From Siphonodentalium dalli (Eukaryota > Mollusca > Scaphopoda > Gadilida > Siphonodentaliidae), in contig CP136069.1 in the NCBI GenBank assembly GCA_032622095.1, positions 30,384,342-30,448,341 of the forward strand: DNA of 64,000 nucleotides, written 5' to 3'. Of the stretch, positions 6,751-55,049 are shown in pieces. The position numbers were made by a program, and so were the translations under genes. Below the pieces are notes generated by a model. It had not been told where the DNA came from, ran no database searches, and saw nothing but the letters and a program-made list of their open reading frames with translations. Position 1 is the first letter of the stretch. Each line of letters begins with the position of its first letter.

Positions 6751-8960
6751 CCCCTGCACATGACCATCTAATTTAAGATCCAGATAAACATTCATCCCCT
6801 CCCCTGCACATGACAGACCATCTAATGGAACATACAGATAAACATTCATCCCACCCCCCTGCACATGACAGACCATCTAATGGAACATACAGATAAACAT
6901 TCATCCCACCCCCCTGCACATGATCATCTAATGGAACATACAGATAAACATTCATCCCACCCCCCTGCACATGACAGACCATCTAATGGAACATACAGAT
7001 AAACAGTCATCCCACCCCCCTGCACATGACCATCTAATGGAACATCCATATAAACAGCCATCCCACCCCCCTGCACATGATCATCTAATGGAACATACAG
7101 ATAAACAGTCATCCCACCCCCCTGCACATGACCATCTAATGGAACATCCATATAAACAGCCATCCCACCCCCCTGCACATGATCATCTAATGGAACATAC
7201 AGATAAACATTCATCCCACCCCCCTGCACATGACAGACCATCTAATGGAACATCCATATAAACTGTTATCCCCTCCCCTGCACATGATCATCTAATGGAA
7301 CATACAGATAAACAGCCATCCCACCCCCCTGCACATGATCATCTAATGGAACATACAGATAAACATTCATCCCACCCCCCTGCACATGACAGACCATATA
7401 ATGGAACATACAGATAAACATTCATCCCACCCCCCTGCACATGACAGACCATCTAATGGAACATACAGATAAACATTCATCCCACCCCCCTGCACATGAC
7501 AGACCATCTAATGGAACATACAGATAAACATTCATCCCACCTCCCTGCACATGACAGACCATCTAATGGAACATACAGATAAACATTCATCCCACCCCCC
7601 TGCACATGACAGACCATCTAATGGAACATACAGATAAACATTCATCCCACCTCCCTGCACATGACAGACCATCTAATGGAACATACAGATAAACATTCAT
7701 CCCACCCCCCTGCACATGACAGACCATCTAATGGAACATACAGATAAACATTCATCCCACCTCCCTGCACATGACAGACCATCTAATGGAACATACAGAT
7801 AAACATTCATCCCACCCCCCTGCACATGACAGACCATCTAATGGAACATACAGATAAACATTCATCCCACCTCCCTGCACATGACAGACCATCTAATGGA
7901 ACATACAGATAAACATTCATCCCACCTCCCTGCACATGACAGACCATCTAATGGAACATACAGATAAACATTCATCCCACCCCCCCTGCACATGATCATC
8001 TAATGGAACATACAGATAAACATTCATCCCACCCCCCCTGCACATGACAGACCATCTAATGGAACATACAGATAAACATTCATCCCACCCCCCTGCACAT
8101 GACAGACCATCTAATGGAACATACAGATAAACATTCATCCCACCTCCCTGCACATGACAGACCATCTAATGGAACATACAGATAAACATTCATCCCACCC
8201 CCCCTGCACATGACAGACCATCTAATGGAACATACAGATAAACATTCATCCCACCCCCCTGCACATGACAGACCATCTAATGGAACATACAGATAAACAT
8301 TCATCCCACCCCCCTGCACATGACATACCATCTAATGGAACATACAGATAAACATTCATCCCACCCCCCTGCACATGATCATCTAATGGAACATCCATAT
8401 AAACAGTCATCCCACCCCCCTGCACATGATCATCTAATGGAACATCCATATAAACATTCATCCCACCCCCCCTGCACATGACAGACCATCTAATGGAACA
8501 TCCATATAAACAGTCATCCCACCCCCCTGCACATGATCATCTAATGGAACATCCATATAAACATTCATCCCACCCCCCTGCACATGACAGACCATCTAAT
8601 GGAACATCCATATAAACAGTCATCCCACCCCCCTGCACATGATCATCTAATGGAACATCCATATAAACATTCATCCCACCCCCCTGCACATGACAGACCA
8701 TCTAATGGAACATCCATATAAACAGTCATCCCACCCCCCTGCACATGATCATCTAATGGAACATCCATATAAACATTCATCCCACCCCCCTGCACATGAC
8801 AGACCATCTAATGGAACATCCATATAAACAGTCATCCCACCCCCCTGCACATGATCATCTAATGGAACATCCATATAAACATTCATCCCACCCCCCTGCA
8901 CATGACAGACCATCTAATGGAACATCCATATAAACAGTCATGCCCTCCCCTGCACATGAC
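6751..8960. repeat. Large minisatellite of 51/55-bp units with higher-order pattern
   Basis: About 40 head-to-tail units of the form 'catctaatggaacatacaga', 'taaacattcatcccaccccc', 'ctgcacatga'. Units come in two lengths (55 bp with 'cagac', 51 bp without) and carry linked variants: 'acagat/ccatat', 'attc/agtc', 'cccccc/ctccc'. From about 8380 two unit types alternate strictly, giving dimers of about 106 bp; from about 7500 to 7930 'ccacctccc' and 'ccacccccc' alternate. Because 55 is not a multiple of three, the repetitive minus-strand open frames are not evidence of a protein. Confidence 0.95.
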
Positions 8961-11720: not shown

Positions 11721-11977
11721 CAAGCCTTGAAAAAGTGTGTCTGTCATTTGCAGAATGAGGTCCCCAGAGGGTGAATTTAGTGATGCTACCCCCGCATAGC
11801 GGGCTAGCATCACAAAATTCACCCTCTGGGGACCTCATTCTCTGCTGAGGTGTAAGCAGAATGAGGTCCCGAGAGGGTGAATTTGGTGATTCTAGCCCGC
11901 TATGCGGGGTAGCATCACTAAATTCACCCTCTGGGGACCTCATTCTGCAAATGACACACACCCTATTTCAAGGCTTG
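11721..11977. mobile_element. Compact family C element with both ends and target duplication
   Basis: Termini are CAAGCCTTGAAAAAGTGTG and the inverse ..CTATTTCAAGGCTTG. Two hairpins of about 100 bp are joined by 'tgaggtgtaa'. Flanking octamers GTACAACG (11713-11720) and GTACAATG (11978-11985) differ at one base. An 8-bp duplication fits the hAT superfamily. Confidence 0.85.
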
Positions 11978-13728: not shown

Positions 13729-14061
13729 TTAACCCCTCCATGAATGGAGCTTCCTGAAATTTTGCGAAAAACCCTGTGCCAATGCATTCTCTTATATATG
13801 CGAGTCTTCCAAATATGGTTAGGCCAATGATATTTACTTTGACCTTGTAAGCCAGTGCATTCTCTTATATATGCGAGGTTCCCTATGGGAGACTCACATA
13901 TATAAAAGAATGCATTGGCCTAACCATAATTACCTTGACCTTGTAAGCCAGTGAATTTTCTTCTATATGCGAGGCTCCCTATGGGAGTCTCGCATATATA
14001 AGAGAATGCACTGGCTCAGGGTCTTTAATGCTGCACCAGCGCAGCGATATGAAAGGGTTAA
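13729..14061. mobile_element. Family B-double-prime TTAA MITE with three hairpin modules
   Basis: Ends are TTAACCCCTCCATGAATGGAG and ..GCAGCGATATGAAAGGGTTAA. It carries a half hairpin at about 13770 and two fuller hairpins with a 'ccctatgggag' core. The link 'ttgaccttgtaagccagtg' occurs twice, so one hairpin unit has been duplicated relative to the copies at 25.0, 36.4 and 63.1 kb. Confidence 0.8.
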
Positions 14062-43935: not shown

Positions 43936-44066
43936 TTAACCCTTTCTATACTAAATGGATTCTTCCAGTCAGTTAAAAAGTGTACATCAGAATGGTTTGC
44001 TATGGATTTGAAGGGATAAGCTGACGACAGATAAATAAAAGTACAGAAGGAGTCCTATTTATTTAG
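43936..44066. mobile_element. Family F TTAA MITE, shortened
   Basis: TTAACCCTTTCTATACTAAAT then 'atcagaatggtttgctatgg', ending in 'gtcctatttatttaggg' next to a family C element. The right end is lost. Confidence 0.65.
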
Positions 44067-44067
44067 G

Positions 44068-44484
44068 GAAATGAGGTCCCCAGAGGATGAATTTGGTGAT
44101 GCTAGCCCACTGTGCGGGGTAGTGTCACCGAATTAATCCCCTGGGAGTCCTCTTTCAGTATTGCCTCATCTGCCATGGAAGGTCTAGACACAGATTTAGG
44201 TACCCAGACGGTGAAGATGGTGATGCACACCCATTGGGAACCTTGATTATGCTATGTGTCGTCAGCTAGTTTGGGGATAAAGAGCAACTAAACAAAAAAA
44301 AGGAAAAAGAATCTTTCTAAAGCAACTGAAAAAACTTGTTAATTTGATAATAAATATACTGTATAGAAGAAGAGGCCTAAGCAGAATGAGGTCCCCAGAG
44401 GGTGAATATAGTGATGCTAGCCCACAATGCAGTATACATGTAGCATCACTAAATTCACCCTATGGGGACCTAAACTCAGGCTTG
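44068..44484. mobile_element. Family C long form, left terminus lost
   Basis: Left hairpin, internal block ('gatggtgatgcacacccatt', 'gatgaggcctaag'-like 'agaagaggcctaagcaga'), right hairpin and terminus 'aactcaggcttg'. Only 13 bp separate it from the next copy. Confidence 0.78.
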
Positions 44485-44497
44485 GTTCTGTTCCAAG

Positions 44498-44750
44498 CAA
44501 GCCTTGAAATAGTGTGCCTGTCATTTGCAGAATGAGGTCCCCAGAGGGAGAATTTAGTGATGCTACCCGCATAGCGGGCTAGCATCACCAAATTCACCAT
44601 CTGGGAACCTCATTCTGTTGAGTTGTAAGCAGAATGAGGCCCCCAGAGGGTGAATTTGGTGATGCTAGCCCACTATGCGGGGTAGCATAACTAAATTCAC
44701 CCTCTGGGGACCTCATTCTGCAAATGACAGACACACTATTTCAAGGCTTG
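44498..44750. mobile_element. Compact family C element with perfect 8-bp target duplication
   Basis: 253 bp from CAAGCCTTGAAATAGTGTGC to ..CTATTTCAAGGCTTG. GTTCCAAG lies on both sides (44490-44497 and 44751-44758). Two hairpins are joined by 'ttgagttgtaa', as in the copy at 11721. Confidence 0.9.
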
Positions 44751-44761
44751 GTTCCAAGGGG

Positions 44762-44890
44762 TAATAGTCTGGCTGTTGAAGGGTTGAACCCGGAAAAAAT
44801 TCTTAACAAGCTGAATTTGGTGTCATTCGATGCAGCATAACCCCATGGTGAACATATCCAAAATCCGCTAAAATCCGCCTTGGGGAATTT
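44762..44890 (+). repeat. Left terminal inverted repeat of the 4.4-kb element
   Basis: It begins directly after the target duplication of the neighbouring family C copy. The best-matched blocks against the right end are 'acccggaaaaaattcttaac' (44788) and 'tccaaaatccgctaaaatcc' (44857). The middle 'tgtcattcgatgcagcataa' is diverged. Confidence 0.75.
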
Positions 44891-45261
44891 TTTTAATTCA
44901 AGATGGCGTCCAACATGGCCGCTTGAAAGTTGAAAATTTCGAGAATTATATTGTTTGACGCACAATATAAAACTATCATCCCGTGTTATAACCAACAGTC
45001 CTTTTGTAGTGTATACAATATATTTCCAGAACAAACTATGTTGTTTCCGGGTAAAAGACTTAAACATGGCGGCCAAAATGTCAGCCAAAACCGGAAACTA
45101 TGTGTTTTTCTTTATTTTCCCACTAATTTTCCACATTATGAATGTATTGACTTTGAATCCCCCACCCATAAGAAAGATATATTAAATTGAGTGTTGAGAT
45201 TGCTTTCTGGCGATAAAGCCACATTCAATCCAGTTCCTGAAACAACAACCGTTCAAAAAAA

Positions 45262-48200
45262 TCGTGCAAATCTCACCACGACAATCCCCACAGGCAGTGA
45301 CACACTTAAGTCCATTTTTTCCGACATGAACATTGGATTGTGCCACAAGGATTTCTTGACGACATTTTTCAATTTCATCGAATGAATTTAAGAAGAATTT
45401 CTAGTGCTGGTTCTTGGTCAGTGATAGTTATTGACCCCTGCAGTTTCGATCCCCAATGTGTTGGTTCTAGATCTATTTTCCCGAGATATGCCCAGATTAC
45501 GTACAACCTGTAAGTGAACACCAAGACTATGGAAATGGGTTGCCCTCTCTAAATGTGGCAATTTCTGAGGTTCGATAGCAGACCTGCCGGATGAAATCGT
45601 GGTCATCAACTTCGCGTATCTTAGATGGTCGAGGGACTCTCCATCCTTGCCCGAGTACATTTGAATGAAAATCTTCGAACCTGCCTCGCCTAACTGTTGG
45701 GCTGACGCAGCCCGATTGCTGATTTCTATGGAAAGATGTTGCTGCTCCTTCGAATAGTATGAACACCATCCTCTATAAACACTTGTATAACCACGGATAT
45801 TTCTTGAGTAAGTCAAGCGTCATTTGCAAAAACAAGCCACAGCTCTTCGCATAGTGCACGTGCCCAGTGGCGGCAAACAAATTCAACATTTCCCGAACAA
45901 CTACTAAATGGAGATTCCAATCTCCTGTTCTCTCTCAGATGGAATAATATCTTTCAACATTTCTAGACTCTCCATATACTGTAACCAAAGTTTGGATGTT
46001 CTGGATTTCTCGCCAAGGTATGTCTTGTAATATAACATAAGTTCCTTCAATTTGAGCAGTTCTATTGAATCGGAAAAAGTCGAAACTGGGATTATACCAT
46101 CAATGACTTTTTCATACAGCTCAATTATTGCTTTCACTTCAACCTGACTAAGCTTCTCCCCTTCGAAACTGTCAGTACCAGTTGCAGCGATTCCTTCGAT
46201 TACCGATTCTTCGACATTTGATGCCGAAGGTACTTCGATATTTAACGTTGAAGGTACTTCGACATTTTATTTTGCAGACAATTCTGATGTCGCGTTTGAT
46301 GCCGCGTCATATGCTGTCCACTTGTAAATTTCATTTTAATCCTCAGAGATCAATTCATCCAACAGCTTATTAGTAAGGGCTCCGTCTACAAGGAAATGAC
46401 ATATGGGTGCTCGCGAGAATGCCTTTCCAGAAAGATTTGTGGCAACTACGTTTGAGCCATAAGCGTTTTCAAGAGCATCATCTAACCCTGACCCATTCAT
46501 CATGGTACCAATGCTACCCACGAAACTCATAATAAGATGGAAGCCGCCGAGTCTACAAACTATTCCAAGTGACTTGGCTTCAATGATCTCAATCGCTTTG
46601 AGTGACTGGTCAAAGGCCAAGCATGAAGTCACAATTCCAAACTGTGTCGCGTGATTCTGAATATACATCAAGGTGGAAAACAAACAAGACTCACCTGATG
46701 GGTTGAGGTCTATTATCGGTAGAAAAAGAATTTCTGACTTGGCTGAAGGTTCTGAGTTGTTTGAAGAAAAGATGTGTTCCATGAATCCAGACCAGTTCGG
46801 CCTGTTTCATTGCTCGATTTGAAGGCCAACCGCAATGCCAATCAGTGTTCAAACCTGGAGGCAGTGTGTGTGGGTTTTGTAACTCAAACATGGGTCGGTA
46901 CTTTATTGTGGATAATCCCAGCGTTGTAGGTTTCAAATAGTGTATGAAGGCACACCCCTGTTTTCGATTAGTTCTTCAACCATAACACGTTTTTTGACGA
47001 GTGATGAATTTTTATATAGGTGTAAATGGGTGTCGTCCTTCTGATTTGAAACTGCGATTATCCCCATACCATGAAATGAACCTTTACCATCAATAGTAGC
47101 GACGTTGTGGTCGACGTTATCTGCTGCCCACTGCGTAAAGGAACATGGAAATACTCCACTAGTGTACTCTCAAGACTTTCCACCTGGATCACTGATGATT
47201 TGTATCTGCTTACTTCGTCGCAAGTAATTGAATACCCCAATTTAGTCAGTTCATCAACAGGCCACCTTGAACCGAACACGCGATCCATTTCAAACCCAAT
47301 ACCAAAAAGGGAAGGGTAATAACAGATTGCACGATACTGTGACCATTGCTGTTCTGTTTTATTTCAGATGGAACTAGTATCTCCAGAAACATTTGTAAAT
47401 GGCGAGGAATCCATTTATTTCTGTTGTCAATATTCCCTATCTCCTCGCTGGTGGGGTACGTTTTCTTATCATATCTCATTTCCCGCAACTTTGCCCTAAT
47501 CATCTTCGCGGCGGTCACAACAACTGTGTATGGTATGCCGTCTTTCTTATCCGCATACCACTTGTAATTTATCGAGTTCTTAGCCATATCGTTGAAGCAA
47601 ATGTCGTTGCTATGCCCTTCGATTTCAGCAAACAAGATATACTCCCCATACCGTTCTTCACATTTATGTTTAAGGCGTTTTATTAAATTAAGGTTCTGAC
47701 CAAATTGCTAGCTCTACCATTTGAGTATGTAACTCGGACAGAGTATAAAGTTCGGTACCACCCAGACTCCAGCCATACACACAGCTAATCAAATGAGCGT
47801 TGCATTTCGACACTTGGTGTTCTGCCATGTGGTTTTCTCTCAGATGGATCCTCAGTTATTTCTCCAAGAACATGGTGAAACAAGAGGCATTGTATACGGC
47901 TTCTGCAGCAACGAGATCAGTGCAGCTTAGATTGAGTCTCTGAACCTTCAGTCAAGTTCATTGCTCACGAATCTTCTCTTATTCGGCAATGTTCTAAAAC
48001 TTTGTATCAAATAGGGAGAGTTGCTACTGTTCGCACTTGCCTTCTACCGGGATGACGGGGATCTGATATGGCACCCTTTCCACATATTAATCAGTCTTTG
48101 AAATTAAATGGGTCTTGTTTATACCTTATTTGCTTAGAGAGTGGAACCGTATCCATACACTCAGGATTGACACTGAAGGTTCTTTTCCAATCAGTGAAAT

Positions 48201-48440
48201 CACGCCTGCGGTCTTTATGGACCAAAACCTTAAAAATGGGTGTGGTTATTTGTTGGCCCTTTACATATTCAGATAAGTGGTTATATCTTCGCTTATCAGA
48301 GAAGTAAATTAAAGTCTCCAATCCTTTTTCCATAACGTTTACCAATGGATTTTCGTTAGTGTCCACATTACATTGACACATGCTATGAAAGGACAATGCG
48401 GACAATTCCTCTTGAACGTTGATGGCCCCAACTTACCAGG
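45262..48440 (-). pseudogene. Decayed member of an uncharacterised CXC-domain family
   Basis: Reading the minus strand from 48440 downwards, conserved segments appear in a consistent order across different frames. They are: an N-terminal piece with 'LVNVMEKGLETLI' and 'KVLVHKDRRRDFTD' (48405-48091); 'ELYTLSELHTQMVELA' (about 47752-47699); 'YGEYILFAEIEG' and 'TAAKMIRAKLREM' with 'HLQMFLEILV' (47680-47246); 'MDRVFGSRWPVDELTKLGY' (47288-47058); 'DNVDHNVATIDGKGSFHGMG' (about 47125-47065); 'RPNWSGFMEHIF' then 'GGFHLIMSFVGSIG' and 'SGLDDALENAYGSN' (46800-46336); an acidic linker; 'TGHVHYAKSCGLFLQ' (about 45880); 'ESLDHLRYAKLMTTISSG' (about 45640); and a terminal cysteine cluster, CxxxxxCxC then CVTACGDCRGEIC (45365-45262), resembling the tesmin/TSO1 CXC motif. 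At least five frameshifts or stops break it. I recall this order from many unnamed mollusc and cnidarian proteins; its function is unknown. The terminal inverted repeats around it suggest a transposon origin. Confidence 0.75.
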
Positions 48441-49011
48441 TTGGTTCTGCCATCGCCGAACACGTACCAGATCAAACGAGAGACTGGTATGATAATAAAA
48501 AAAAATCAACCAAGAACAATGCAGTTTGAATAGACAAGTATTAGCCTTCTGTGTATGTTGGCACCATTAGGTTTCAAAAGAAGGCGAAAAATAAATACAA
48601 TGTCACACAAAACACATATAAAACAACTACGAGTCACCGATATGGTTAAAATAATTAGCGTTAATTTACATGTAGACCCATCACTTCGTCTTTTCACAGT
48701 ATATCGCCACATTCAAGCAAGAATGATAAACTCGAGACTAACTATATATATAGTTTAATGAAAGCTATTAAAGAGCGTTTAATTAAACGGACTTTCACCA
48801 TAATATAAGAAATACGCTTTCCATTGTCCATATTTATGTAAATATATTATCTGACGACCTTGCAATTATATAATCGTTCATTTTATATAAATATATGTAC
48901 TGAAACAACTTTTATCTAGCTCACTTAGCGCACATACGGAGTCCCGTAGTCACAATTCCCTTCATAAATTGCGCCAGGCCCCTCCCCTATTCAGGGCGCT
49001 GTAGAAAATTT

Positions 49012-49147
49012 TCCCCAAAGCGGATTTTAGCGGATTTTGGATACGTTATACACAAAGCTCTCCTCTTTCCAACGGTACCAAATTTGGCTTGTTAAGAATT
49101 TTTTCCGGGTAGTTTCTATAATTCAGCTCCGACAGCGAGACTATAAT
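49012..49147 (-). repeat. Right terminal inverted repeat of the 4.4-kb element
   Basis: Reverse complement of the left repeat, from 'ttccccaaagcggattttag' inward of the edge to 'gacagcgagactata' at the outer edge. It is slightly longer than the left copy because of an extra 'ttatagaaact' block. Confidence 0.75.
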
Positions 49148-49379: not shown

Positions 49380-50040
49380 CAAACTAAATATGGACTATCA
49401 GCCACAAATATGTCAAATATATAACTCACACCTATTTAACCCTTTACCCAACAGAACGGCCCTGTGCCAATGCATTCTCTTATATATGCGAGTCGACCAT
49501 AGGTCGCCTCACATATATAAGAGAATGCATTGGCTTAATACATATTAAAAATGATAAAATTGTCAAAGAATGTAGAAAAATATTTAAAAAATTGTTAAAA
49601 AATGTAAGATAAAATTGTTAAAGAATGTAAGAAAATATGGTAAAAAGTGTTAAAAAAAGGATTTTTTTTTAGGCCAATGCATTCTCTTATATATGCGAGG
49701 CGACTTATGGTCGACTCGCATATATAAGAGAATGCATTGGCACAGGGCATAACTGTAACCATCACAATGTGGTCAATGAACCGGTTCCAATGATATCCAT
49801 ATTTGTATGGTGTTATTGAGACAGACCGAAGATATTTTAGGCTGTTGAAGCTTTATTTGGGCGTTTTTTGCCGTTTTGTTGGGTAAAGGGTTAATACTGA
49901 GTACGGAATGTGAGCTACAAATTTGTCAAATTGAAAACTGACACTGATTTACTGAGTATGGACTATGAGCCACAAATATGTGTCAAATATATAGCTTACA
50001 CCGATTACAGAGTATGGACATTGACATACAAAATTGTCAA
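49380..50040 (+). repeat. About 60-bp tandem array interrupted by family B
   Basis: Units resemble 'gagtatggactatgagccac' and 'aaatatgtgtcaaatatata'. One unit ends at 49435; the array resumes at 49895 with 'tactgagtacggaatgtgag'. The element between sits on a TTAA. Confidence 0.75.
49436..49894 (+). mobile_element. Family B TTAA element, longest copy
   Basis: 459 bp. The spacer between hairpins is enlarged by repeated 'aattgttaaagaatgtaaga' units. The tail carries 'gggcgttttttgccgttttg' instead of the usual 'ggccggttttggccgg', defining a subfamily with 43013-43439. Confidence 0.9.
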
Positions 50041-52403: not shown

Positions 52404-55049
52404 TTGTATCTTAAAATCTATAAGAAGTATAACATTTTGTTCTAAGAAAATATCGTTGTGATTAACTAGTGCTATTTGAACTGTCAGCTATAACCCTCTA
52501 ACTTAACGATAATTCAGTTTTGCTTTAGAATAACCAAAATGTAAGCAATGTAGATAGATGTCTTATCTTAAAATCTTGAATATTTGTTATAAGAAAGTAT
52601 CGTTGTTACTAACTCGTACTGCATTAACTCACTGCTTTAACTCTCTAACTTAACGATAATTCAAAATAGCAGGCCAGAATCTGACAAATGGTCCTCTGAC
52701 CTTTTTTTATATATTTGATAATTTAGAAAGTATCGGTGTTACTAACTAGTACTATTTGAACTGGGTGCTTTAACTCTCTATCCATAAATAATTCAGTTTT
52801 GTGTTAGAATTAGCGAGACTGTAACCCATGCAGATGTCGTATCTTAAAATCTATACTGATTATTTGATACAAGAAAGTATCCGGGTTATTAACTCGTACA
52901 GGCGTGAACTGTCTGCTTTAACCCTCTAACCACAAATAATTCAGTTTTGCTTTAGAATCAGCCAGAATTTAACCCATATAGATGTCGTATCTTAAAATCT
53001 ATACGGAGTATTTGTTCTAAGAAAGTATCGATGATATTAACTGGTACTGTCTTGAACTGTCCGTTTTAACCCTCTAATCCTAACGATAATTAAACACTGT
53101 GAGAAAATTCATGTTTTACTTCAAACTTTGAATTTGTTGGATAACAAATATAGCTTACATATGGTTCCTAACAAAATATATTATTCAAGACTGTGATAAA
53201 AAAATAATTATAGTTTTCCCTTTGAATTAAGCCAGACAGTAAACCCTGTAGATATTGTATCTTAAAATCTATAAGAAGTATAACATTTTATTCAAAGAAA
53301 GTATCAATGTGATTAACTAGTACAATTTGAACTGTCTGCTGTAACCCTCTACCTTAATTATAATTCAGTTTTTCTTTAGAATATGCCAGAATATAATCAA
53401 AGTAGATGTCGTATCTTAAAATCTATACTGAATATTTGTTATAAGAAAGTATCAGTGTTATTAATTAGTACTATCGTGAACTGGCATAACGATAGTCATA
53501 ACCTTTTTTATATTTGATAACTGAGAATGTATCAGTGTGATTAACTATTGTTTTAACCCTCTAACCTAATAATTCAGTTTTGCATTAGAATTAGGCAGAA
53601 TATAACCCATGTAGATGTCGTATCTTATGATCTATACTGATTATTTGTTCTAAGAAAGTATCGTTGTTACTAACTATTACTGCATGAACTGGGTGGTTTA
53701 TCTCTCTAACATAATGATAATTCAGTTTTGCATTAGAATTAGGCAGAATATAACCCATGTAGATGTCGTATCTTATGATCTATACTGATTATTTGTTCTA
53801 AGAAAGTATCGTTGTTACTAACTATTACTGCATGAACTGGGTGGTTTATCTCTCTAACATAACGATAATTCAGTTTTGCATTAGAACTAGGCAGAATATA
53901 ACCCATGTAGATGTCGTATCTTATGATCTATACTGAATATTTGTTCTAAGAAATTATTGTTGTTACTAACTATTACTGCATGAACTGGGTGGTTTATCTC
54001 TCTAACATAACGATAATTCAGTTTTGCATTAGAACTAGGCAGAATATAACCCATGTAGATGTCGTATCTTATGATCTATACTGAATATTTGTTCTAAGAA
54101 AGTATCGTTGTTACTAACTAGTACTGCATGAACTGGGTGGTTTATCTCTCTAACATAACGATAATTCAGTTTTGCATTAGAACTAGGCAGAATATAACCC
54201 ATGTAGATGTCGTATCTTATGATCTATACTGATTATTTGTTCTAAGAAAGTATCGTTGTTACTAACTAGAACTGCATGAACTGGGTGGTTTATCTCTCTA
54301 ACATAATGATAATTCAGTTTTGCATTAGAACTAGGCAGAATATAACCCATGTAGATGTCGTATCTTATGATCTATACTGATTATTTGTTCTAAGAAAGTA
54401 TCGTTGTTACTAACTAGAACTGCATGAACTGGGTGGTTTATCTCTCTAACATAACGATAATTCAGTTTTGCATTAGAACTAGGCAGAATATAACCCATGT
54501 AGATGTCGTATCTTATGATCTATACTGAATATTTGTTATAAGAAAGTATCAGTGTTATTAATTAGTACTATCGTGAACTGGCATAACGATAGTCATAACC
54601 TTTTTTATATTTGATAACTGAGAATGTATCAGTGTGATTAACTATTGTTTTAACCCTCTAACCTAATAATTCAGTTTTGCATTAGAACTAGGCAGAATAT
54701 AACCCATGTAGATGTCGTATCTTATGATCTATACTGATTATTTGTTCTAAGAAAGTATCGTTGTTACTAACTAGTACTGCATGAACTGGGTGGTTTATCT
54801 CTCTAACATAATGATAATTCAGTTTTGCATTAGAACTAGGCAGAATATAACCCATGTAGATGTCGTATCTTATGATCTATACTGAATATTTGTTCTAAGA
54901 AAGTATTGTTGTTACTAACTAGTACTGCATGAAATGGGTGCTTTTAATAGCTCTCTAACATAACGATAATTCAAAACAGCAAGCCAGAATCCAGACATCT
55001 GCCAAATGGTCCTCAGACTTTTTTTTATATTTGGTAATTGAGAATCCAT

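Follow-up and report, generated by a model that had tools for sequence, protein, structure and literature searches.

The window analysed here is a 64,000-nucleotide stretch of the genome of the scaphopod Siphonodentalium dalli (GenBank assembly GCA_032622095.1, contig CP136069.1, positions 30,384,342 to 30,448,341 of the forward strand), and our subject is the transposon that it carries: an element of 4,379 bp (44765..49143, no strand assigned), which is a non-autonomous internal-deletion derivative of what we refer to below as type D. The element is bounded by a left terminal inverted repeat (TIR; 44765..44893, plus strand) that begins with TAGTCT at 44765 and a right TIR (48991..49143, minus strand) that closes with AGACTA at 49143, and is flanked by a target-site duplication of the trinucleotide TAA (44762..44764 on the left and 49144..49146 on the right). 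Local alignment of both ends gives a score of 107, whereas none of 500 dinucleotide-shuffled controls exceeded 31; a 106-nt core of the TIRs is 78% complementary, and outward extension of the alignment reaches TAGTCT/AGACTA, with TAA on each side. The TIR-bounded segment described in the initial annotation is thus real, and the bounds given for it, 44762-49147, are correct to within one base.

The protein encoded on the minus strand of the element is broken. In a frameshift-tolerant alignment with P0001, a member of the protein family described below, 522 of the 870 aligned codons are identical (60%) over P0001 residues 13-904, with the frame interrupted by 10 frameshift steps and six in-frame stops. 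This broken transposase part (45744..48429) comprises a cysteine/histidine-rich N-terminus and an RNase H-like core; the codons for D449 (at 47121) and D622 (at 46611) are still present. Across a stretch at 45727..45770 (minus strand) P0001 residue ~904 is joined to ~1360: about 455 residues (~905-1359), the entire nuclease domain among them, are missing between the blocks GHVHYAKS and HLRYAKLMT, and the candidate catalytic E918 is gone as well. What follows is a C-terminal remnant (P0001 1360-1523; 45266..45753, minus strand) with a cysteine-rich CXC tail that ends at 45266. The conserved blocks listed for this protein in the initial annotation were all found on the minus strand in the order stated, and a Pfam search with the window’s own protein pieces matched nothing meaningful.

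Copies of the element are spread over the source genome (2.23 Gb in nine contigs): the 43 bases that open the left TIR occur at 122 places with at most three mismatches, and the reversed-pattern control at none. We read 38 further loci, selected for the left TIR closest to that of the window; the sample is therefore biased towards the window’s subfamily. An inverted TIR match was present in 37 of the 38, and both ends could be placed everywhere except at L034, L035 and L040, yielding 36 elements of 3.7-6.2 kb, that of the window included. The target duplication is exactly 3 bp in 29 of these, 5 bp in one (ATATA, so at least 3 bp) and 4 bp in another; five elements have none. Because 30 of the 36 show a 3-bp duplication and all 36 carry the protein, the window segment belongs to a DNA transposon.

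Some loci have unusual arrangements. L016 and L020 (C1:49470082-49487455) are 99.9% identical, lie in opposite orientation and have the flanks TAA/GAA and GAA/TAA, a swap of duplications as expected after an inversion between the two. L026 (C6:117278928-117285928) and L032 (C6:117274268-117281268) each form one half of a head-to-tail dimer, whose outer flanks carry one TAT duplication. The head-to-tail junction, AGACTAGTCT with a shared TA, occurs at two genomic places, L026/L032 and L035 (C1:228234729-228241729), and may stem from recombination or from an intermediate with joined ends. L019 is the only element without a duplication for which neither an inversion nor a dimer accounts.

The same genome also holds open full-length copies. 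In a search of the genome with P0001, 30 of 5,497 candidates were scored and yielded 39 rows; at least six of these rows begin at residue 13 or 17 and read through to 1535 uninterrupted by stops (frames of 1,575-1,585 residues, 68-69% identity); a seventh long row, 70% identical to P0001, has one TGA. In at least six of these seven long rows the left TIR lies 466 bases from the coding end. We read the flanks of three of the six open copies: both TIRs are of the window’s family, at 94.9% and 93.5% identity, and each element is 5,922-5,923 bp long, with a 3-bp duplication (CTA, TTA and CTA). The role of mobility protein that had been suggested for the product is thereby supported, given that all 36 resolved elements carry it and that the three open copies share TIRs and 3-bp duplications. 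A second, more distant set of rows, with ~53-60% identity to P0001 (for example G000:C8:147228629-147233074 and C3:231707690-231712033) and several of them stop-free, shows that the genome harbours one or more additional lineages of this kind.

The protein, initially described as an orphan, has homologues of ~1,500 residues in bivalves, gastropods, corals and one sponge. In our searches, for which candidates needed short exact words in common with the query, 7,990 candidates were scored against the joined window pieces, of which 162 reached E ≤ 0.001, and 6,902 against a Mytilus member, of which 523 did; the best 120 of each set, which we examined, include proteins from Mytilus, Mercenaria, Littorina, Patella, Porites and Dysidea. 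Some homologues carry only the labels Tesmin/TSO1-like CXC or 5'-3' exonuclease. In the alignment of 39 full-length members (~1,420-1,590 residues) D449, D622 and E918 (P0001 numbering) are invariant, as are D1146, D1185, D1255, D1257, D1279, D1281 and D1340. Nor does the initial view that no function could be assigned hold: the N-terminal part is modelled as an RNase H/DDE transposase, with the P-element transposase as the best match of the predicted structure, and towards the C-terminus follow a nuclease of XPG/FEN1/Exo1 type and the cysteine-rich tail. Of the two folds that had been suggested, the RNase H-like one is predicted for the core, and a tyrosine recombinase appeared neither in the models nor among the Pfam matches of 33 members.

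A phmmer search of the PDB with P0001 alone gave no match at E ≤ 1, and a profile was therefore required; at the same threshold the profile of the homologue family retrieved only Exo1 chains. Foldseek with the P0031 model gave 41 matches at E ≤ 10 and none at E ≤ 0.001, the transposases ISCth4, TnsB, Transib and RAG1 appearing weakly among them, and with the long P0079 model the nuclease dominated the matches, in the viral library too. Pfam PF20231 (DUF6589) matches six of 33 full-length members (best E 1.3e-6), with the other 27 falling short of E 0.1; in P0091 the match covers residues 595-881, inside the transposase part, and at least part of DUF6589 is therefore probably a transposase of the P0001 kind. 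An NCBIfam search with four members returned nothing relevant. A viral or bacterial origin was also considered and dropped: tblastn over 26 viral and 38 genome-contig stretches, picked by scans with two peptide patterns each, yielded no relative.

The nuclease is incomplete in all 36 resolved elements, the most that is kept being 118 of its 195 residues (1146-1340), and its loss is recurrent, with the transposase sequence largely preserved. Four types of deletion can be told apart by the P0001 residues missing: ~947-1352 in type A, ~940-1223 in type B, ~972-1404 in type C and ~904-1360 in type D, the latter comprising the window element and L022; the larger deletion of L017 is nested in type A. 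Residues 1223-1351 are retained in B and missing in A, C and D, residues 948-972 are retained in C and missing in A and B, and residues 1352-1403 are retained in A and missing in C. Because each retains residues that the others lost, A, B and C are, judged by their breakpoints, independent of each other. Type D forms its own branch, but might conceivably have arisen by extension of the A or the B deletion. The 44-mer spanning the window’s junction is identical in L022, and with at most three mismatches the junctions of types A, B, C and D occur at 10, 17, 33 and six places genome-wide, respectively; the total of 66 is a lower bound, as the A-like gaps of L011, L013, L018 and L029 mismatch the 44-base junction at 8-10 positions. 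Copies of one type are up to 99.9% identical, and no copy has an open frame of more than 304 residues. Such identity despite broken frames points to spread of the derivatives in trans.

The following mechanism would accommodate these results. The intact protein of ~1,575 residues may use its cysteine-rich modules to bind the ~130-bp TIRs, and a DDE centre in the RNase H-like domain, with D449, D622 and E918 as candidate residues, would cut and join the DNA, inserting it with a 3-bp stagger. The XPG/FEN1/Exo1-like nuclease may trim 5' flaps or ends as the element is excised or gaps are processed. Copies like that of the window probably arose when incomplete repair left out the nuclease region, and would then have been mobilised by the protein of intact copies.

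As for its identity, the window segment is very probably a dead, internally deleted Academ (AcademX-type) cut-and-paste DNA transposon; by published description, it fits as a new member of the AcademX lineage. A Repbase report by Kapitonov and Jurka is said to describe Academ with an XPG nuclease and a Cys8 finger, and Kojima reportedly described AcademX as a lineage of the Academ superfamily in 2020, in Repbase. Among the matches listed in our literature search, no paper has the whole words Academ and XPG together, and the Academ passages of PMC10799480, PMC12210899, PMC5753468, PMC9004415 and PMC10941475 are without protein anatomy. An excerpt of PMC10045372 gives duplications of 9 or 10 bp for AcademH and of 3 or 4 bp for AcademX, lengths that seem tied to the helicase and nuclease that the two encode; Academ is counted among the DDD/E superfamilies in a passage of PMC9587614, and part of PMC10294476 reports 100 curated bivalve Academ elements with a mean of 5,565 bp.

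The same part of PMC10294476 has Academ almost limited to bivalves among molluscs, whereas our protein is also present in gastropods, corals and a sponge. Its presence in gastropods speaks for an undescribed DNA transposon superfamily like Academ in architecture only, as does the fact that the likeness rests on a published description and not on reference sequences, and that no Pfam name other than DUF6589, in six of the 33 members, was obtained. We nevertheless consider an undescribed superfamily, which the initial annotation had favoured, very unlikely, and set it aside because the nuclease, the duplication length and the size (~5.9 kb) match AcademX; the union of transposase and nuclease in one protein and the presence in bivalves match AcademX/Academ as well. 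That a host gene lies by chance between two repeat copies is next to inconceivable: the protein is indeed long and conserved across phyla, but copy number (122 left ends genome-wide) and duplications reject this, with all 36 resolved elements carrying the protein and 466 bases separating coding end and left TIR in six of the seven long copies.

A further possibility concerns the derivatives and is compatible with, rather than exclusive of, the Academ assignment: some nuclease-less derivatives, at the time they spread, might have encoded a DDE-complete transposase, working alone or sharing the nuclease of intact copies. Three of the four deletion types do start after the candidate E918 (at ~940, 947 and 972) and remove mainly the nuclease, their breakpoints indicate at least three independent events, and types C and B, with 33 and 17 junctions, occur most often. 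Against this, all 36 frames read are broken in copies that are up to 99.9% identical, indicating recent spread in trans, and the type D copy of the window is without E918 too; we regard the idea as improbable. Also unlikely, and offered as a conjecture, is a broader reading of the at least three independent losses of the nuclease in this AcademX family, in which the DDE core is mostly spared: the nuclease could be unnecessary in cis, or carry a cost there, and be supplied by intact copies as a common good; the family would then divide into transposase-type and nuclease-bearing partners. Nuclease-less forms do appear to outnumber open ones (66 junctions versus at least six open rows, from 30 of 5,497 candidates scored).

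Widespread unnamed invertebrate proteins gain a likely function, as transposase-nuclease fusions of a DNA transposon and not host genes, and part of Pfam DUF6589 is tied to a transposase. Near-identical derivatives and open copies in one genome make the role of the nuclease and its repeated loss testable.

Elsewhere in the window, palindromic repeats with GCAGAATGAGGTCCCCAGAGGGTGAATTT lie at 44066-44753 and 11750-11946, one such array stopping ~11 bases from the element’s left end. Hairpin-forming repeats, in several copies with ATTCTCTTATATATGCGAG in the stem, are found at 49459-49748 and 13830-14015. A tandem array occupies 6762-8960 (55-bp unit, 41 copies, 92% matches), and a satellite-like array of three blocks occupies 52725-54973 (148-bp unit, up to 97% matches).

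P element and hAT transposons make duplications of 8 bp and are rejected, those of our family being 3 bp; unlike P element and hAT (Hermes), the family has an attached nuclease and a CXC tail, and no sequence match to them was found in the PDB at E ≤ 1. Cryptons have a tyrosine recombinase domain and lack TIRs; here TIRs are present, the core is modelled as RNase H-like and no recombinase Pfam model matches the 33 members. Kyakuja-Dileera-Zisupton (KDZ) elements are recognised by Pfam domains for the KDZ transposase and associated CxC domains, none of which matched the 33 members at E ≤ 0.1. AcademH is likewise rejected by the 3-bp duplications and by the lack of a helicase among the 14 Pfam families that these members matched at the same threshold. 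The family resembles PF20231 (DUF6589), a Pfam family without function that six of the 33 members match, and differs from the FEN1, XPG and Exo1 nucleases in that its nuclease is fused to a transposase, inside a transposon. The closest likeness is to AcademX, as far as the excerpted descriptions go: a DDE-type transposase with an added nuclease, TIRs, duplications of 3 or 4 bp and a size of ~5.6-5.9 kb. A DDD/E transposase of RNase H-like fold is predicted by the models, and a nuclease joined to the transposase is found in the homologues and the open copies; unlike AcademX, the window copy has had its nuclease deleted.
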